In this document: positions 46,578 to 56,915 of the stretch, in pieces | How the letters are laid out: every line of letters starts with the position of its first letter | Numbering within the stretch: position 1 is the stretch's first letter | Assembly: GCA_019973575.1 (NCBI GenBank) | Contig: BPUI01000004.1 | Coordinates: 124,001 to 188,000 of the forward strand | Direction of reading: 5' to 3' | From: Gemmatimonadetes bacterium T265 | GTDB lineage: Bacteria; Gemmatimonadota; Gemmatimonadetes; Gemmatimonadales; Gemmatimonadaceae | DNA length: 64,000 nt | Program-made: the position numbers and the translations under genes | The notes under the pieces: model-generated | Told to the model about the DNA's origin: nothing | Databases searched by the model: none | What the model saw: only the letters and a program-made list of their open reading frames with translations

Positions 46578-47450
46578 ATGCGCGCTCGCCTCGTGCTCGC
46601 CGCCGTCCTGTCCGCCGCCGCCCCGCCTCTCCGGGCGCAGGCCGGCCCGAGTGTCCTCGAGGCCGGCGCGGCGTTCAACGACTGCCAGCGGGAGGGCTTC
46701 TCCGCCGCGCCCGTCGGGATCACCGCGTGTCCCGAGCACGGCGTCGACGGGAGCGCGGCCGCGCAGGCGACCTTTACCGCCCTGCACGCCCGCGCGGCCG
46801 TCGGCGGCGCCGCGCAGGGCGGGGTCGTGTTCTCGCCCCAGGCTGCCGCGTCGGCGTACGCGCACGACACCTTCACCTTCACCGGCGCGCTCCCGGCGGC
46901 CGTCCAGCTCGACTTCGCGCTCGACGGGACCGAGAGCGGCAGCGTCGGCAACGCCCGGACCGAGGCGTACGCAAAGTTGGCATTCGACGCCGCGTGGGCG
47001 AGCGGGCGGGTGACGGCGGACGCCGGCTACGTGTACCTGCTCGACGCGCTGGGCGCGCGCGCCGACACGAGCGCGGGCCCGGAGGGCGCGTGGGTCGGCT
47101 CCGGCGGGCAGGGGCACGCCCGGTTCGCGGTCACGACGGCGGTGAACACGCTCACGCTCGACCTGACGGCGACGGTCGACCTGTATGATTTCGTCGACGG
47201 GACGCGGGCGTCGGGGACCGCGGCCGCCGACTACTACGCCACGGGCCGGATCACGGGCCTGCAGTTCTTCGACGCGGCCGGCGCCGACGTCACGGCGACC
47301 ACGCCGTTCACGGTCGCCTCGGGCGCCGCGTACCCGCTCGGCGCGCCGGGGAGTACGACGACGGCCCCGGAACCCGGGCCGCTCGCCCTCGCGCTCGGCG
47401 GGCTCGCGGCGGCCGGGGCCGCGGCGTGGGGCCGGCGCCGCGCGGCCTAA
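46578..47450 (+). CDS. PEP-CTERM protein
   Basis: 290 residues. Signal peptide RARLVLAAVLSAAAPPLRAQ; C-terminal sorting signal APEPGPLALALGGLAAAGAAAWGRRRAA with PEP, hydrophobic helix and basic end. The middle (HDTFTFTGALPAAVQLDFALDGTESGSVGNARTEAYAKLAFDAAW, TAVNTLTLDLTATVDLYDFVDGTRASGTAAADYYATGRITGLQFFDAAG) is a beta-sandwich common in exosortase substrates. Its destination is the cell surface or extracellular matrix. The stop codon is inside a GCCTAAC word. Confidence 0.8.
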   Translation: MRARLVLAAVLSAAAPPLRAQAGPSVLEAGAAFNDCQREGFSAAPVGITACPEHGVDGSAAAQATFTALHARAAVGGAAQGGVVFSPQAAASAYAHDTFTFTGALPAAVQLDFALDGTESGSVGNARTEAYAKLAFDAAWASGRVTADAGYVYLLDALGARADTSAGPEGAWVGSGGQGHARFAVTTAVNTLTLDLTATVDLYDFVDGTRASGTAAADYYATGRITGLQFFDAAGADVTATTPFTVASGAAYPLGAPGSTTTAPEPGPLALALGGLAAAGAAAWGRRRAA

Positions 47451-48425: not shown

Positions 48426-49712
48426 GGCGGTCTCAGGCGGTCAGTGCACCACCTCGCGGGTAGGCCAGTTCTCTACCGGAGGTGAGGCGTGAGCGAGACG
48501 GTGCCGGGGCGCTGGTCGGCGGCGGAGCAGGAGGAGATCTGGGCGCGGTGGCGCAGGGGCGAGTCGTTCCGCGCCATCGGGCGGCACTTCGGGACGCACC
48601 TGCACGCGGTCCGGCGCTTCGTCGCGCGCACGGGCGGCTGCCGGCGCCCGCCGCCGCGGCGCGCCGAGGGCGTGTTGACGGCGGCCGAGCGCGAGGAGGT
48701 GTCGCGCGGGCTCGCGGCCGGCGAGTCGTACCGCCAGGTCGCCGCCCGACTCGGGCGGGCGCACACGACGATCTCGCGCGAGGTGGCGCGCAACGGCGGC
48801 CCGACGCAGTATCGGGCGGGCGCCGCCGACGCGGCCGCGTGGCGCCGGGCCGAGCGCCCCAAGCCGGCGCTGCTGGCCACGCGGCCGGTGCTGCGCGCGG
48901 TGGTCGAGGCCAAGCTCGCGCTGCGCTGGTCCCCGCAGCAGATCGCCGCGTGGCTGCGCCAGGCGTACCCCGAGGGCCCGGAGATGCGCGTGTCGCACGA
49001 GACCATCTACCTGTCGCTCTTCGTGCAGCCCCGCGGGGCCTTGCGGCGGGAACTGGCGCGGTACCTGCGCACGGGGCGCGCGATGCGCTGCCCGCGCGGC
49101 GCACGCTCGGGCGGCGGGCGCGGGCAGCTCAAGGACACGGTGTCGATCCGCGAGCGCCCGGCCGAGGTCGAGGACCGCGCCGTCCCGGGGCACTGGGAAG
49201 GGGACCTCGTGTTCGGGCGCGGGGCGAGCGCGGTGGGCACGCTCGTCGAGCGCACGACGCGCTACGTGGCCCTGTTCCCGGTGCCGGGCGGCTACAAGGC
49301 GCCGGCCATGCGCGAGGCGCTCGCGGCCGCCGTCGCCCGGGTGCCCGACCAGCTCCGCCGCTCGCTGACCTGGGACCAGGGGAAGGAGGTGGCCGAGCAC
49401 GTCCGGCTCACGGTCGACACCGGGCTGCAGGTCTACTTCTGTGACCCGAGGAGCCCCTGGCAGCGTGGCACGAACGAGAACACGAACGGGCTGCTCCGGC
49501 AGTACCTGCCCAAGAGCGCCGACCTGAAGCCGCTCACCCAGGCCGACCTCGACGCCGTCGCGGCCGAGCTGAACGGGCGCCCGCGCGAAACGCTCGGGTG
49601 GCAGACGCCAGCCGCGCGCTTCCTGGCGCTGGCGGAAGCCGGGTAGCGCCTAACGCCACCGGCCCGTATGCTCCCGATCAGGCCGGTGGTGCACTGACCC
49701 CCTGAGACCACC
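48426..49712 (+). mobile_element. Complete IS30-family element (1,287 bp)
   Basis: 28-bp inverted repeats at 48426-48453 (GGCGGTCTCAGGCGGTCAGT...) and 49685-49712 (other strand GGTGGTCTCAGGGGGTCAGT...), 26 of 28 matching. Both flanks are GGG, compatible with the 2-3-bp duplication made by IS30 elements, although the poly-G context makes this weak. One transposase gene. Confidence 0.88.
48489..49646 (+). CDS. IS30-family transposase
   Basis: 385 residues. N-terminal HTHs: RWSAAEQEEIWARWRRGESFRAIGRHFGTHLHAVRRFV and LTAAEREEVSRGLAAGESYRQVAARLGRAHTTISREVARNGG. Catalytic core: RAVPGHWEGDLVFGRGASAVGTLVERTTRYVALFPVPGG (first Asp), RRSLTWDQGKEVAEHVRLTVDTGLQVYFCDPRSPWQRGTNENTNGLLRQYLPK (second Asp and Glu), and ELNGRPRETLGWQTPAARF at the C-terminus. 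Intact and full length. GGAGG precedes the GTG. Confidence 0.92.
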   Translation: MSETVPGRWSAAEQEEIWARWRRGESFRAIGRHFGTHLHAVRRFVARTGGCRRPPPRRAEGVLTAAEREEVSRGLAAGESYRQVAARLGRAHTTISREVARNGGPTQYRAGAADAAAWRRAERPKPALLATRPVLRAVVEAKLALRWSPQQIAAWLRQAYPEGPEMRVSHETIYLSLFVQPRGALRRELARYLRTGRAMRCPRGARSGGGRGQLKDTVSIRERPAEVEDRAVPGHWEGDLVFGRGASAVGTLVERTTRYVALFPVPGGYKAPAMREALAAAVARVPDQLRRSLTWDQGKEVAEHVRLTVDTGLQVYFCDPRSPWQRGTNENTNGLLRQYLPKSADLKPLTQADLDAVAAELNGRPRETLGWQTPAARFLALAEAG

Positions 49713-50848: not shown

Positions 50849-51502
50849 GTGTCCGTGCCTCACTCAAACGCTTCGCCGTGCGCGGTCGCCGCGTTCGCCT
50901 TGATGCTTGCCGTCGGGCCACCATGGACCGCCGCGGCACGCGCCCAGATCTCGACCGCCGGTCCGGACAGCGCCGCTCTCGCCTCCCCCGCGCGCGGACC
51001 GATTCTCGCCGCCCCCGCCGGCCTCGCAAGTGCGGTCCCCGCCGACACCGGCCGTCCGCACGCCGTGACGTACAGCGACGCGTACGGCACGCGCCTCACG
51101 ATCCACCGCTACGCGAGCTACGCCACGCTTCCGGTGTTCGCCGCGGAGTACGTGCTCGGTCACAAGCTCCTACACTACCGCGACGTCGGCCAGCCCTCGC
51201 CCGACGGCACCAAGACCGCGCACACCGCCGTCGCGCTTGGCCTCGGCGCGCTCTTCGCCGCGAACACCGTGACCGGCGTGTGGAACTGGTGGGACGCGCG
51301 CCACGACCCGAACGGGCGCGCGCGCCGCACCGTGCACTCCGCCCTTATGCTCGCCGCCGACGCGGGGTTCGCAGCGGCGGGTGCGCTCGCCGGCCGGGCA
51401 GGCAACAGCCGCTCGGGCGCGTACGTCCACCGCAACGTGGCACTCGCCTCGATGGGTGTCACCATCGGCGGCGGCGCAATGATGTACCTGTGGAAGGAGT
51501 GA
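50849..51502 (+). CDS. Small exported/membrane protein with cytochrome b561-like His pattern
   Basis: 217 residues from the GTG at 50849 (a second GTG lies at 50855). Signal segment CAVAAFALMLAVGPPWTAAARAQ. Four later hydrophobic helices each begin with a His: IHRYASYATLPVFAAEYVLG, AHTAVALGLGALFAANTVTGVW, VHSALMLAADAGFAAAGALAG and HRNVALASMGVTIGGGAMMYL. Four membrane-edge His are what b-type heme ligation needs, so a b561-like cytochrome is inferred; no defined family is recognised. Gene 1 of an operon with a second membrane protein (8 bases apart) and two Rieske proteins. The upstream gap 50450-50848 has no clear gene. Confidence 0.55.
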   Translation: MSVPHSNASPCAVAAFALMLAVGPPWTAAARAQISTAGPDSAALASPARGPILAAPAGLASAVPADTGRPHAVTYSDAYGTRLTIHRYASYATLPVFAAEYVLGHKLLHYRDVGQPSPDGTKTAHTAVALGLGALFAANTVTGVWNWWDARHDPNGRARRTVHSALMLAADAGFAAAGALAGRAGNSRSGAYVHRNVALASMGVTIGGGAMMYLWKE

Positions 51503-51509
51503 GGGTCGC

Positions 51510-52085
51510 GTGACCGGGACCGACACTGGCACGTACCACGCGCTCGTCCAGCGCCTCGTCGCGCTCGCCGCGCCCTGGAACTCGGCATACAGTGACTCCA
51601 AGGTTATCGCGGTGGCGGTGGTGTTCGCGCACGTCGCAGGGCTCGTGATCGCCGGGGGCTTCGCGGTCGCAGCGGACCGCAGCACGTTCCGCGCGTGGCG
51701 CGCCGGCGGCGGCGACGCCGGCCTGGCCGCGCGTTCGCACCACCTCGCCGAGCTGCGGGCCGTGCACCGCCCGGTGGTCGTGGGCCTCGTGATCGTGAAC
51801 GTGAGCGGAGTGCTGCTCTTCCTGGCCGACGTGAAGACGTACGCGGCGTCGGTCGCCTTCGGCGTCAAGCTCCTGCTCGTCGCGCTGCTGCTCGTGAACG
51901 GCCTGTGGATGACGCGCGCCGAGGAGCAACTCCGGGCTGACAACGCGAGCGCGCCCGCCGTCGGGCCGCGCGGTGGGAGGCCACAGGCCGACCGAACGTG
52001 GCACCGCCTGCGCGTCGCGGCCGCGGCGAGCGCCGTCCTGTGGGTCGCGACCACGTTCGTCGGCGTCGTGCTCAGCAACGGCTAA
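51510..52085 (+). CDS. Four-helix membrane protein in the Rieske operon
   Basis: 191 residues from the GTG at 51510; GAGGG is six bases upstream. Hydrophobic helices: SKVIAVAVVFAHVAGLVIAGGFAVAA, RPVVVGLVIVNVSGVLLFLADV, ASVAFGVKLLLVALLLVNGLWM and RVAAAASAVLWVATTFVGVVL. His occurs in the first helix (AHVAG) and in the loop SHHLAELRAVHRPV. This layout recalls small cytochrome b or copper-resistance (CopD-like) membrane proteins, but no signature is certain. It follows the His-rich gene by eight bases and precedes the first Rieske gene by 31. Confidence 0.6.
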   Translation: MTGTDTGTYHALVQRLVALAAPWNSAYSDSKVIAVAVVFAHVAGLVIAGGFAVAADRSTFRAWRAGGGDAGLAARSHHLAELRAVHRPVVVGLVIVNVSGVLLFLADVKTYAASVAFGVKLLLVALLLVNGLWMTRAEEQLRADNASAPAVGPRGGRPQADRTWHRLRVAAAASAVLWVATTFVGVVLSNG

Positions 52086-52116
52086 AGCGCGACGGCTCAT
52101 CAGCAGCATCTCACTC

Positions 52117-52680
52117 ATGCCTAACAGCACCCCACCGGCCGATCCGTGCGGCCGCTCCTGCGCCGGCGCCGCGGGCCCCGACCCGATCGGGCCCGATCGC
52201 CGCACCTTCCTCGCCGGGCTCGGCGCGGCCGCCGCGGCGGCGCTCGTCGCGGCCGGCACCGCGCCCGCGCGTGCCCTCGCCGAGCCGCTCGCGCTCGTCC
52301 GCGCCGTCGCCCGCTCGGCCGACGGTCACGCCGGCGGCGAACACGCGTACCCGATCCCCGCCGGAGACGGCGCCTCGATCGACACCGACAACGAGGTGAT
52401 TCTCGTGCGGTGGCAGGACGCGGTCTACGCCTTCAACCTCGCGTGCCCGCACCAGAACGTCGCGCTCCGTTGGCTCAACGCGGACCGGCGGTTCCAGTGC
52501 CCCAAGCACAAGAGCCGCTACCAGCCCGACGGCACGTTCATCGAAGGGCGCGCGACGCGCCCGATGGACCGGCTCAACGTCCGGCGCGCCGGCGACACCG
52601 TCGTCGTCGACACCGGCGCGCTCCGCAAGCAGCCCGACGATCCGGCCGCCTACGCCGCCGCCGTCGTTCGTCTTGTCTAA
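52117..52680 (+). CDS. Exported Rieske [2Fe-2S] protein 1
   Basis: 187 residues. Twin-arginine leader PDRRTFLAGLGAAAAAALVAAGTAPARALA. The Rieske cluster motifs are CPHQNVALRW and, 16 residues later, CPKHKSRYQPDG, i.e. CxH and CxxH. The gap between them is normal. It would reside in the periplasm bound to the membrane by its uncleaved or cleaved leader, and carry electrons to or from the two membrane proteins encoded upstream. The start codon overlaps GCCTAAC (ATGCCTAAC). Confidence 0.85.
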   Translation: MPNSTPPADPCGRSCAGAAGPDPIGPDRRTFLAGLGAAAAAALVAAGTAPARALAEPLALVRAVARSADGHAGGEHAYPIPAGDGASIDTDNEVILVRWQDAVYAFNLACPHQNVALRWLNADRRFQCPKHKSRYQPDGTFIEGRATRPMDRLNVRRAGDTVVVDTGALRKQPDDPAAYAAAVVRLV

Positions 52681-52810
52681 CGTATACCTGGCCTAACAGG
52701 CCCAACACGCCGCCCGGGCGCGCCCAACGGGCGCCCCCGGGAGGCACCACACGGGCCACCAGAGGCCGTGCACGGTCCCACCCGGGGCCGACCACCCGGA
52801 GTACCCGCTC

Positions 52811-53308
52811 ATGTCGCACACCCCCACGCCAGCCGGCGTCTGCGGCGGCTGCCCGCTCGCCCCCGCCGACGCCGGCCCGGCCGATCCCGGCCGCCGCGCC
52901 TTCCTCTCGCAGGCCGCGCTCGCGGCCGCGTACGCCACCGCGGCCGCCGCGCTCGCCGCCTGCGGCGCGGGCGGCGACGGCCCCACGTCGCCCGGCAGCA
53001 TCACGCCTACCGCGCTCTCGGTTGCCAGCTACGCCAGCCTGGGCGCAGTCGGCGGCGTTACCACGCTCACGATCAGCGGCGTGCCGATCGTCGTCGTGCG
53101 CACGGGGGCGTCGAGCTTCCTCGCCCTCTCGCGCGTCTGCCCGCACCAGGGGACCACGGTGAACGTCGTGTCGGGCGGCTTCTACTGCCCCAACCACGGC
53201 GCGCAGTTCAACACCACCGGCACCTGGACCGGCGGGCAGCGCGCGTCCAACCTGACGTCCTACCCCACGTCGTACGACGCCACAACGGGAACGCTGACCA
53301 TCGGATAG
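52811..53308 (+). CDS. Exported Rieske [2Fe-2S] lipoprotein 2
   Basis: 165 residues. GRRAFLSQAALAAAYATAAAALAACGAGG combines an RR leader with a lipobox, so it may be a Tat-exported lipoprotein. SYASLGAVGGVTTLTISGVPIVVVRTGASSFLALSRVCPHQGTTVN and YCPNHGAQFNTTGTW give CPHQG...CPNHG ligands, the bc1-type Rieske sequence. Two Rieske proteins beside two small membrane proteins suggest a mini electron-transfer complex. It is 130 bases after Rieske 1, an interval without a gene. Bases 53309-53655 downstream show nothing. Confidence 0.85.
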   Translation: MSHTPTPAGVCGGCPLAPADAGPADPGRRAFLSQAALAAAYATAAAALAACGAGGDGPTSPGSITPTALSVASYASLGAVGGVTTLTISGVPIVVVRTGASSFLALSRVCPHQGTTVNVVSGGFYCPNHGAQFNTTGTWTGGQRASNLTSYPTSYDATTGTLTIG

Positions 53309-53655: not shown

Positions 53656-54282
53656 CTACGTGGGCCGGCTCGCCTCGAGCCACGCCATCACGAGCGCTGC
53701 GTAGTCGGGGAACGGCAGCGGCGGCGGGTCGAGCTCGGCCGCCTCGACCATCGCCGGCAGGTCGGTCCGGAACGCCGCGTAGCGCTCGACCATGCGCTTG
53801 CCGCCCGGCACCGCGCCCGCCGCGTACGGGCTGAGCCAGTTCCGCACGACGGTGATTGCCTGCGCCGGGTCGCCGCCGTGCGCGGCGGGGTCCTGCCCGG
53901 CGATGTCGGAGCAGAACTTCTGGTAGCGGTACTTCTCGGTGTCGAGCACGAGGCAGACCTTCGATCGCTGCCGCGCGGGCCCGAAGCGCATCGCGCCCAA
54001 GAACAGCCCGAGCTCCAGGGGCATGTTGAACCGCGGGAGCCGGTTGACCGGGTCGAGTTCGGTCCGCGACAGGTCGTGGATCCCGAACCGGCACTCGCCC
54101 ACCATATCGAGCAGCCGCGTGATGCGCGGCGTTCCCGTGTTCTGCAGCTCGAGCGCGGAGCGCGCGACGAAGCCGCAGTCGTGCACCGCGAAGACGATCG
54201 CGTCGAGGAGGGCGCCGTACTCCGCGTCGAACGGGCAGTTGACGAAGACGGACTCGGCGTACTTGGGCGTGGGCACCCGCAC
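53656..54282 (-). CDS. Flavodoxin-like/TIR-like protein of the VFVNCPFD family
   Basis: 208 residues. SVFVNCPFDAEYGALLDAIVF is the first strand, loop and helix of a TIR/nucleoside-deoxyribosyltransferase-like fold; CGFVARSALELQNTGTPRITRLLDMVGECRFGIHDLSR and LPRFNMPLELGLFLGAMRFG with the conserved Glu in PLELG are typical and include the probable active-site loop. RSKVCLVLDTEKYRYQKFCSDIAGQDPAAHGGDPAQAITVVRNWL is the second half. This family is widespread and often near mobile elements; some TIR-like proteins cleave NAD, but here the activity is unknown. It is a single gene between the Rieske operon and an IS110/IS3 nest. The GTG at 54282 has GAGG five bases upstream. Confidence 0.6.
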   Translation of the reverse strand: MRVPTPKYAESVFVNCPFDAEYGALLDAIVFAVHDCGFVARSALELQNTGTPRITRLLDMVGECRFGIHDLSRTELDPVNRLPRFNMPLELGLFLGAMRFGPARQRSKVCLVLDTEKYRYQKFCSDIAGQDPAAHGGDPAQAITVVRNWLSPYAAGAVPGGKRMVERYAAFRTDLPAMVEAAELDPPPLPFPDYAALVMAWLEASRPT

Positions 54283-54742: not shown

Positions 54743-54856
54743 TGGTGAGACGATCGGAACTCATGCGTTCGCGAGATTACACGGTCGGGGACGCGTTAGG
54801 CACCGCCGTTGATACTGAGACGCGTGCTGCGACACCCGCAAACGACCCCGGGTTGT
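54743..54856. repeat. Intergenic repeat, copy before the IS110/IS3 nest
   Basis: GTGAGACG...GAACTCATGCGTTCGCGAGA, then GGGGACGCGTTAGGCACCGCC, GTTGATACTGAGACGCGTG and GCAAACGACC. This matches 33115-33236 block by block and includes a GTTAGGC word (54795). Confidence 0.6.
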
Positions 54857-56249
54857 GAGGCGCGCCGGGCGCCTGCTTCATGAGGGGCGGCCGCGCCCGG
54901 CGCCGCTCACGGGCGCAGGGGGGCTGACGCCCCCGTGTGGCTGACTGGAGCTGACCCCGAGTCACGGACGCGGGGTTTAGGCTGCTCGCGCGGGCTGCGC
55001 GACCAGGCGCCGCTCGTAGGCCACGGGGCTGACGTACCCGAGACTGGAGTGGCGCCGCTCGGCGTTGTACCAGACGACGAAGTCGAAGATGGCGGCCCGC
55101 GCCGCGGCGCGCGACCCGAAGGTGCGCTCGGCCAGCAGCTCGTGTTCGAGCGTCGCGAAGAACGCCTCGGCGACCGCGTTGACGCTCCCATGTCAAGGCG
55201 AGGTGTCGAGCACCCGCGAGATCGGCGAGGAGCAGCGGGTAGAGCTCGCGGATGATGTAGCGCTTGAGGCAGCGAAAGATCTCCTTGCGCGCGCGCCCTT
55301 CCCCCGTGCGGCGCTCGACGTACGCCTGCGTGCGCGCATCGCCTCGAGCGCGCACGAGCGTGATGGTCCAGAGCGCGTTGTTCGCCTGGCGGTCTCCGCC
55401 GCGGTTGAGCCGGTGTCGCGTGACGCGACCCGAGGACGCCTCGACGGGGCTCACGCCGCACAGTGCCGCCAGCGCGGCTTCGCTGCGGAGTCGTTCGGGG
55501 TTGTCGCCCGCCGTGATCAGCAGCGTCGCCGCCGTGTGGGGGCCGACGCCGTGCTGGTCGAGCAGCCGCGGCGCGGCGACGGCGGTGAGGCGCGCCATCG
55601 CGGCGTCGAGTTCGGCCAGTGCCTCCGTGAGCAGCGTCCACCGCCGCGCGAGCGCCCGGAGCGCGCGCAGGCGCGCCTGCTCGAGCGTGGGGACGGCGGT
55701 CGGCTCCAGCGCTAGGCAGCGCGCCACACACGCCGCGAGGCGCGCGCGGCCGAGGATCGCGTGTTCGCCCGCCGGCGCGGTGATGAGCAGGCAGCGCAGC
55801 TGGTTCCCGGCCTGCGTGCGCACCTTCACGGCACTGCGGCGCGCGACCATGAGGATGCGGAGCGCTTCGACGACGCCGTCCTGCGCCTTGGGGACGGCGT
55901 GGGCGTCGCCCGACAGGACCGCGCGAGCGGCGTTCTCTGCGTCGGTGGGGTCGTTCTTGCCCCGCCGCCGCCGGCGCGCGCGGTCCGGCCGGTTGATCTC
56001 GACGACGAGCACGCCGGCGTCCCGGAGCACGCGCGTGACGCCGGCGCCATACGACCCGGTGCCCTCGATGCCGGCGTGCGTCACTGGGCCAAAGGCGCGC
56101 GCCCAGGCCAGGAGCTCGTCGTAGCCGGCCGGCGTCGTGGCGACGCCGCGCATGCCGAGCGAGCGGCCTAACGCGTCGAGCGCCGCGCACGCATGCGTGT
56201 CGCGATGGGTGTCGATGCCAAGCGTGATCGTGGGCTGCGTCGTGGACAT
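54777..56249 (-). CDS. IS110 transposase, running out of the element
   Basis: 490 residues as read, of which about 356 belong to the element. TITLGIDTHRDTHACAALDALGR begins the DEDD (RuvC-like) nuclease domain with the first Asp; HAGIEGTGSYGAGVTRVLRDAGVLVVEINRPDRARRRRRGKNDPTDAENAARAVL contains the Glu and later Asp residues. The C-terminal Transposase_20 domain is HGVGPHTAATLLITAGDNPERLRSEAALAALCGVSPVEASSGRVTRHRLNRGGDRQANNALW with the conserved Ser. After YIIRELYPLLLADLAGARHLALTW the frame passes the element end without a stop and continues antisense-like into IS3 sequence for some 135 residues, so the stop codon is supplied by the target. Confidence 0.85.
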   Translation of the reverse strand: MSTTQPTITLGIDTHRDTHACAALDALGRSLGMRGVATTPAGYDELLAWARAFGPVTHAGIEGTGSYGAGVTRVLRDAGVLVVEINRPDRARRRRRGKNDPTDAENAARAVLSGDAHAVPKAQDGVVEALRILMVARRSAVKVRTQAGNQLRCLLITAPAGEHAILGRARLAACVARCLALEPTAVPTLEQARLRALRALARRWTLLTEALAELDAAMARLTAVAAPRLLDQHGVGPHTAATLLITAGDNPERLRSEAALAALCGVSPVEASSGRVTRHRLNRGGDRQANNALWTITLVRARGDARTQAYVERRTGEGRARKEIFRCLKRYIIRELYPLLLADLAGARHLALTWERQRGRRGVLRDARTRAAGRAHLRVARRGAGRHLRLRRLVQRRAAPLQSRVRQPRGLRAAPGRAARASSLNPASVTRGQLQSATRGRQPPCARERRRARPPLMKQAPGAPHNPGSFAGVAARVSVSTAVPNASPTV

Positions 56250-56800
56250 GAGACCTCGCCGTGGTAGAGGGTCGGAGCCCCAGCGGCGGCAGCGCGATGG
56301 ACAGGACACTCACGGCGCAGTGGCAACGAAGCTCCTATCGGGTCACATGCACCGGCGAGCGGGCGACTCGGAGCTCGACGTCGGCTCGACAGGTCAACGC
56401 AAAGGCACGGGACCAATCCCAGCACGGGTCAGGGCCGACGGCGAGGCTCCGCCCGGAATCTCAACTTAGTATCCCAACAGTCGCCTCTCGCACCCATGCT
56501 CGCCACCGCGCCGTGCGCAGCGAGCAGCGCCTGGTAGGCAGCGCTCGCGTACTGACTCCCGCGATCTGAGTGCTGCACGAGCCCCGGGGCGGGGCGCCGG
56601 TCGGCGAGCGCCATGCGCAAGGCCGCCAGCACGAGTTCGGTCTCCATCGTCTCGCGCACCGCCCAGCCGACCACGCGGCGGCTCGCGAGGTCGAGCACCA
56701 CGGCCAGGAAGAGCCAGCCCTCGCGCGTGGGGACGTAGGTGAAGTCCGTCGCCCACGTCCCCACGAGCCGGTTGAGCAGGGCCAAAGTAGGATCGCGGGT
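54946..56800 (-). pseudogene. IS3 remnant split by an IS110 element
   Basis: Left end TGGAGCTGACCCCGAG (54946) equals the right terminus of the IS3 copies at 18252 and 41384. The 3' piece (54979-55180) encodes NAVAEAFFATLEHELLAE through RRHSSLGYVSPVAYERR; the 5' piece (56471 to about 56800) encodes TWATDFTYVPTREGWLFLAVVLDLASRRVVGWAVRETMETELVL...QHSDRGSQYAS...GARGDCWD. Removing the IS110 element joins GDCWD and NAVAEAF correctly. The first half of orfB and all of orfA are absent, so the element is dead. Confidence 0.82.
55181..56470 (-). mobile_element. IS110-family element inserted in an IS3 transposase gene (1,290 bp)
   Basis: Boundaries were deduced from the interrupted IS3 orfB: it ends at codon Asp (GAT, 56473-56471) and resumes at Asn (AAC, 55180-55178). 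As usual for IS110, no long terminal repeats or target duplication are seen. The ends are GACGCTCCCATGTCAAGG (55181 on) and ...CTCAACTTAGT (to 56470). About 220 bases upstream of the transposase start (56250-56470) would hold the guide (bridge) RNA region typical of this family; its structure was not worked out. Confidence 0.75.
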
Positions 56801-56915
56801 CATCCACCCCTCGCTTCTCGTAGTGCCTCACGAGCCGGCTCGGGCGCGTGGCTCGGGGTGCCCGAGGCGGGCGGGTCGGCCGAGCAGGAGAACCGGTGCT
56901 CGACGTGCCGGGCCC

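Follow-up and report, generated by a model that had tools for sequence, protein, structure and literature searches.

Gene content and genomic setting of the locus

The window (the whole stretch of 64,000 nucleotides that was analysed) carries four adjacent genes, g1 to g4, which form an intact cassette with intergenic gaps of 7, 31 and 130 bp and which are flanked on both sides by transposase genes:

48489-49646, + strand: transposase with rve/HTH, resembling IS30
50849..51502, + strand: g1, GTG start at 50849, 217 amino acids, four-helix membrane protein with an N-terminal signal-like segment
51510..52085, + strand: g2, GTG start, 191 amino acids, four-helix membrane protein, distantly HemJ/DUF2214/DUF6644/CopD-like
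52117..52680, + strand: g3, 187 amino acids, Tat-exported Rieske [2Fe-2S] protein
52811..53308, + strand: g4, 165 amino acids, Tat Rieske lipoprotein
54777-56309, - strand: transposase, IS110-type
56429-56803, - strand: rve transposase fragment

A preliminary description of this DNA had proposed that four genes in a row encode a b561-like protein with four His-led helices, a second four-helix protein with histidines, a Tat-exported Rieske protein and a Rieske lipoprotein, and all four open reading frames proved to be real, intact and located on the forward strand where it had placed them. The window further encodes a secreted protein at 46578-47450 (+ strand), with a weak PEP-CTERM-type end that falls under the cut-off (E 0.0022), and, at 53656-54282 (- strand), a protein of 208 amino acids that starts with VRVPTPKYAESVFVNCPFDAEYGALLDAI... 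and has no Pfam or PADLOC match.

The host genome, whose relatives are Gemmatimonadota, comprises 5.6 Mb in six contigs and harbors two ordinary Rieske and cytochrome b loci elsewhere, at C1:1298714-1299921 and C5:37210-38297, the latter adjoining genes that read as heme-copper oxidase subunits. The cytochrome b profile PF13631 matched this genome only at C1:1299373 and C5:37210, neither of which lies in the cassette, and g1 and g2 have no Pfam match to cytochrome b, in agreement with the earlier claim that the locus lacks a normal cytochrome b or c1. A profile search of the genome also found a genuine HemJ at C1:2237863 (147 bits) and did not report g2. Given two ordinary Rieske/cytochrome b loci and a separate HemJ, the cassette constitutes an extra module. 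As for the ordinary loci themselves, their cytochrome b genes (C1:1299373-1299921 and C5:37210-37758) have identical profile scores (129.6 bits) and a Rieske gene with each, the bc locus thus being duplicated on two contigs, with one copy next to the oxidase subunits.

Conservation of the cassette in Gemmatimonadota

A protein search found g1 in 46 of 99 related genomes, and in the loci fetched from such genomes the partner genes adjoin it. Across the 99 genomes, g1 and g2 are shared in 40 (Fisher p ~1e-15) and g1 and g3 in 45 of 46 (Fisher p ~3e-19), p values that overstate independence because the genomes are related. In a phylum-wide draw, g1 was present in 123 of 395 genomes, mainly from the window's own family. 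When 84,980 species genomes were scanned with a single peptide pattern, a method that may have missed more distant relatives, 98 loci were returned, 80 of which were kept; nearly all of these come from Gemmatimonadota, with a few from MAGs labelled as Acidobacteria. No relative of g1 or g3 was found in plasmid records.

Fifty-four of the loci, those having at least 3.5 kb downstream, could be tested for partners, and g2 was present in 44 of them, g3 in 46 and g4 in 35. Forty-four of the 54 loci show g1, g2 and g3 in succession on a single strand, and g4 is nearby in 35 of the 54, so that the co-occurrence that the preliminary description had proposed to check was borne out. All 259 matches share the strand of g1; the genes overlap or nearly abut, and the median gaps are 1.5 bp between g1 and g2, 15 bp between g2 and g3, and 1 bp between g3 and g4. 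Partial cassettes also occur (g1 with g4 only in 4 of 54 loci, g1 alone in 4 of 54, and others with g1 and g3), indicating that the four proteins need not make one stoichiometric complex. Since the homologues adjoin one another in the same order and strand in dozens of genomes, and the four histidines of g1 (see below) are invariant, the arrangement reflects more than chance: the cassette is a recurrent Gemmatimonadota operon, kept by many soil and lake members of the phylum.

Several neighbouring features vary among lineages. A TonB-plug protein adjoins the cassette in about 10 of the 80 loci, mostly on the same strand, and lies upstream in L057, L062 and L063 and downstream in L052, L072 and L073; ECF sigma and anti-sigma-like genes accompany part of these loci. 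These neighbours hint, for a single lineage only, at a function connected with iron or the outer membrane. Directly downstream of the cassette, L080, L102, L104, L109, L111, L114, L116, L119, L124 and L127 carry a gene that resembles M20-type peptidases; it was set aside as a partner, being lineage-specific and confined to these ten loci of a Gemmatimonas-like clade. CxxCH proteins, sought as candidate c-type cytochrome partners, are encoded near the cassette in only 6 of 80 loci. In each of four clusters (G094:C163, G124:C18, G137:C41 and G225:C8), g1 is present twice, at a distance of a few kb.

A membrane protein with four invariant histidines

The product of g1 has four histidines, His86, His125, His163 and His194 (codons at 51104-51106, 51221-51223, 51335-51337 and 51428-51430, respectively), that are invariant in all 76 homologues, which answers in the affirmative the question of histidine conservation on which the preliminary description had made its proposal depend. 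Thr142-Gly143, Asn139, Asn146 and Arg151 are likewise invariant among the 76 sequences, and the spacings His86-Gly104 (18), His125-Gly143 (18) and His125-His163 (38) are fixed in all of them. AlphaFold2 predicted helices at residues 79-112, 119-149, 157-179 and 188-214, mostly with pLDDT above 90, and each histidine lies 6-7 residues, or two turns, into its predicted helix. This is the architecture of b561-type proteins, in which four consecutive membrane helices each bear one invariant histidine, on alternating faces. In an antiparallel bundle, these positions place His86 and His163 at one face and His125 and His194 at the other, and the modelled fold and haem geometry thus predict two bis-His haem b sites, one near each face.

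Alignment columns 127-148 and 196-214 (in helices 2 and 4) are practically never charged, forming runs of 22 and 19 columns that point to a membrane bundle; a soluble bundle like the designed protein 4D2 was rejected on this ground. Positively charged residues are more frequent ahead of helix 1 and in the segment linking helices 2 and 3, a pattern that conflicts with the topology implied by the signal-like N-terminus.

At the level of sequence families, the window g1 scored 14.4 bits against cytochrome b561 (PF01292; cut-off 30.1, E=0.034), and neither g1 nor g2 of the window exceeded the cut-off of any Pfam family. Scans of single members of the g1 family gave weak matches throughout: 43 of 76 matched DUF4079 (PF13301) at E <=0.1 (best 5.7e-6, the window g1 not being listed), 14 of 76 matched b561 (best E 0.0012) and 12 of 76 matched DUF420. 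The term b561-like, as applied to g1 in the preliminary description, therefore stands as regards the four His-led helices and the predicted bis-His geometry and falls short as regards the Pfam b561 cut-off; because that cut-off was not reached, the term rests on geometry together with weak profile matches.

The best PDB match of the g1 profile was the designed two-haem protein 4D2 (E 1.2e-4), aligned His-to-His and Gly-to-Gly, a value that is the sum of three weak repeats with an i-E of about 15 each. Superposition of the g1 model on the 4D2 structure gave Z 12.7 and an rmsd of 1.6 Å over 100 residues, just under the Z of about 13 below which helical bundles may reflect a common arrangement only. 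Foldseek found no match in the PDB at E <=0.001 for g1 or g2. The VIA structure lists consist mainly of designed and generic helical bundles and place plant cytochrome b561 (4o6y) only low; they were not used to assign a fold family.

A second four-helix membrane protein

The model of g2 comprises four long helices and one N-terminal helix, with a mean pLDDT of 92.9. Ten residues are invariant in all 45 homologues (His41, Asp56, Arg57, His86, Asp107, Lys120, Asn130, Gly131, Trp164 and Trp178), and with His41 and His86 among them the earlier description of a second four-helix protein with histidines holds. Weak Pfam matches within the family were to DUF2214 (33 of 45), DUF6644 (30 of 45), UPF0093/HemJ (21 of 45, best E 1.1e-5) and CopD (6 of 45); the window g2 itself scored 15.5 bits against UPF0093 (PF03653; cut-off 34.2, E=0.022). 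Tests for homology between g1 and g2 detected none, and a PEWY-type quinol motif is absent from both. A third haem or a quinone is a possible ligand of g2.

Two Rieske proteins that differ in their export signals

Both g3 and g4 carry a Rieske domain (PF00355, cut-off 20.3), at 35.1 and 43.2 bits, respectively, and the cluster ligands, CPH...CPKH in g3 and CPH...CPNH in g4, are conserved across the two alignments. Each also has a twin-arginine motif, and so the assignment of g3 as a Tat-exported Rieske protein and of g4 as a Rieske lipoprotein was upheld. In g4, Arg28, Arg29 and Cys51 are invariant in 31 sequences and the lipobox reads LAAC, as in a Tat lipoprotein. Residue +2 of the g4 lipoprotein is Gly, Ala, Ser or Val and never Asp, and sorting to the outer membrane is possible on the basis of this missing Asp only. 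In g3, an AxA site follows the Tat signal in 41 of 50 proteins, with Ala53 and Ala55 nearly invariant among 20 proteins, which suggests that the signal is cleaved and that g3 is probably soluble in the periplasm, not anchored in the inner membrane. The disulphide cysteines of bc1/b6f Rieske proteins, which adjoin both ligand pairs, are found in none of 54 g3 proteins and in 7 of 40 g4 proteins, the window g4 not being among them.

The two proteins also differ next to the cluster. A Ser and a Tyr near the Rieske cluster raise its potential. In g3, this hydrogen-bond pair is kept as Ser133 and Tyr135 (Ser/Tyr in 53 of 54 homologues), whereas g4 has Ala131 and Phe133 in their place (Ala/Phe in 38 of 40), and the potential of g4 is therefore predicted to lie below that of g3. 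Among solved structures, g3 is most closely related to Kustd1480 and Kuste4569, which are the Rieske subunits in Rieske/cytochrome b complexes from Kuenenia; these anammox subunits have potentials of +335 mV and +303 mV (PMC12954380). Removal of Ser or Tyr from the yeast Rieske protein costs about 130 or 65 mV, respectively, as cited in PMC12954380, where one anammox protein departs from the Ser/Tyr rule.

With g4 below g3 in potential, electrons would run more easily from g4 to g3, the opposite of an outward relay from g3 to g4. The preliminary description had envisaged such a relay between the inner and the outer membrane; the different export signals agree with it, and the Ser/Tyr versus Ala/Phe pattern and the probable solubility of g3 speak against it.

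Both Rieske families show a cysteine pair in the cytoplasmic n-region before the twin arginine, as CxxC in 47 of 50 g3 proteins and as Cx2-3C in 35 of 40 g4 proteins, and in none of four other Tat-like open reading frames of the same loci, a very small control. In the window, the g3 pair (Cys11/Cys15, at 52147-52161) is one residue wider than CxxC, and the g4 pair is CGGC, a CxxC (52841-52852). Any such pair would disappear with the signal if the signal is cleaved. In five loci (L082, L083, L100, L101 and L112) the g4 homologue is long, at 270-293 amino acids, and the three that were scanned (L082, L101 and L112) have two Rieske stretches each.

A proposed quinol-to-periplasm electron-transfer module

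Rieske proteins are taken to act either with the homologous cytochrome b found in bc/b6f complexes or with a small number of enzymes. The g1-g4 cassette looks like a compact, undescribed electron-transfer machine that may do part of the job of the respiratory bc complex without the usual cytochrome b or c1. We read it as a single module that moves electrons from quinol to the periplasm, an analogue and not a homologue of the bc core, and give this reading a probability of roughly 0.45. For haem occupancy, the quinol donor, the direction of flow, g3 as acceptor and the roles of g2 and g4, we infer the following. Two bis-His haems b would be stacked across the membrane within g1, one held by His86/His163 near one face and one by His125/His194 near the opposite face, and g2 would pack on g1 and provide a quinone site or a third haem site. 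Menaquinol would most likely be oxidised at the g1/g2 unit, from which g3, the exported Rieske protein of high potential, would take up the electrons and carry them through the periplasm, while g4 would act as a lower-potential, lipid-anchored Rieske protein for a second partner. Such a module would be a pared-down functional analogue of the core formed by cytochrome b and the Rieske protein, with a b561-type bundle as its basis. Against this reading count the partial cassettes, the missing PEWY-type quinol motif, the charge pattern of g1, the weakness of the 4D2 match, and the properties of g3, which is probably cleaved and soluble and has no disulphide, whereas the Rieske protein of bc complexes is anchored. 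We are doubtful of a reading in which the cassette is a non-homologous Rieske/cytochrome b quinol oxidase, with g1 and the HemJ-like g2 replacing cytochrome b and subunit IV and the soluble Tat-exported Rieske protein replacing cytochrome c1 or f as the exit.

Other functions would put the same proteins to different use. As a ferric or siderophore reductase of the b561 type, g1 and g2 would send electrons outward, with which the Rieske proteins would reduce either ferric chelates or a partner in the outer membrane during iron uptake. Ferric reductases do occur among eukaryotic b561 proteins, the TonB-plug genes (partly with ECF sigma/anti-sigma-like genes) point in this direction, and so does the possible sorting of g4 to the outer membrane; yet most loci, that of the window included, have no TonB-plug or ECF neighbours, neither siderophore genes nor a PepSY-type reductase are found among the recurrent neighbours, and a Ser/Tyr Rieske protein is a high-potential acceptor, ill suited to reducing ferric chelates, all of which leaves this function unlikely. 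The predicted order of potentials and the Rieske/cytochrome b-c locus on C5, which adjoins heme-copper oxidase subunits, would instead fit an inward flow, from a periplasmic oxidation through g4, g3 and g1/g2 to the quinone pool or to the ordinary bc/oxidase chain. This we consider improbable, given that no conserved substrate enzyme adjoins the cassette, that CxxCH proteins are rare near it, and that a g3 at several hundred mV would be unable to reduce quinone.

A role in redox sensing, in which the haem bundle and both Rieske proteins would report the state of the periplasm, for instance to an ECF sigma/anti-sigma pair, is very unlikely: such genes are present in a subset of loci, and g3 and g4 have conserved cysteine pairs in their Tat n-regions, but most loci have no regulators and g1-g2-g3 are found without them. 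Finally, the UPF0093 and DUF2214 matches in the g2 family would be explained if g2 were a porphyrinogen oxidase of the HemJ type, with the cassette serving haem or porphyrin oxidation and the other proteins accepting electrons from g2. The genome has its genuine HemJ elsewhere, from a search that did not return g2, and we regard this role as extremely unlikely; when the profiles of the g2 family and of the genome's HemJ were compared, the probability was only 0.2%, an uninformative result.

No description of a g1-g4 cassette was found in the searchable open-access literature: no paper there combines Gemmatimonadetes with Rieske and b561 proteins, and those naming DUF4079, DUF2214 or DUF6644 concern no such cassette, judging by their titles and abstracts. 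If the quinol-to-periplasm reading is true, nature would have reached the Rieske-plus-haem-b design by another route, through an unrelated minimal diheme bundle, and the Gemmatimonadota, common but little-studied bacteria of soils and lakes, would possess an unseen respiratory branch.

Comparison with known systems

Like the bc1 and b6f complexes, including those encoded by the anammox genes Kuste4569-4573 and Kustd1480-1485, the cassette combines a four-helix bundle with two haems b (here predicted), a second small membrane subunit and an exported Rieske protein within one operon. It differs from them in that g1 and g2 have no sequence match to cytochrome b (PF13631/PF00033), g1 has one histidine per helix whereas cytochrome b has two on each of two helices, the cassette Rieske protein has a probable cleavable signal and no disulphide, and there is no cytochrome c1 or f. 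Exported Rieske proteins with no attachment to an ordinary cytochrome b are known in cyanobacterial PetC3, a stand-alone Rieske protein, and in AioB, the small subunit of arsenite oxidase, which was among the Rieske sequence matches. In contrast to both, the two Rieske genes here are fixed partners of g1 and g2, and no arsenite oxidase large subunit lies near the cassette.

The g2 protein resembles HemJ, DUF2214, DUF6644 and CopD proteins in size, in its four helices and in its membrane His and Lys, as well as through weak profile matches in up to 33 of 45 members; the window g2, however, falls under every cut-off, and a true HemJ is encoded elsewhere in the genome. The cytochrome b561 (PF01292, PF03188) and DUF4079 families share with g1 one ligand histidine on each of four consecutive helices and two haems (predicted for g1), and many g1 members match them weakly, whereas g1 is under the b561 gathering cut-off, has only four helices, and is teamed with Rieske proteins and g2, a combination that we found described nowhere.

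The de novo diheme bundles 4D2 and CytbX have, like g1, four antiparallel helices with a histidine two turns into each, and a Thr-Gly that faces the other haem (PMC10400981, PMC10120048). Unlike 4D2, g1 is a natural membrane protein, unrelated to it by descent, and its His-to-Gly spacing is 18 rather than 11, one heptad more. The haems of 4D2 have an edge-to-edge distance of 6 Å (PMC10400981), and those of natural cytochromes b are 12-13 Å apart (PMC10120048). With the additional heptad, the inter-haem distance in g1 should exceed 6 Å and would probably be nearer to that of the natural cytochromes b. If the haem assignment is true, g1 would offer a natural cytochrome with four helices and one histidine per helix for comparison with the designed ones.
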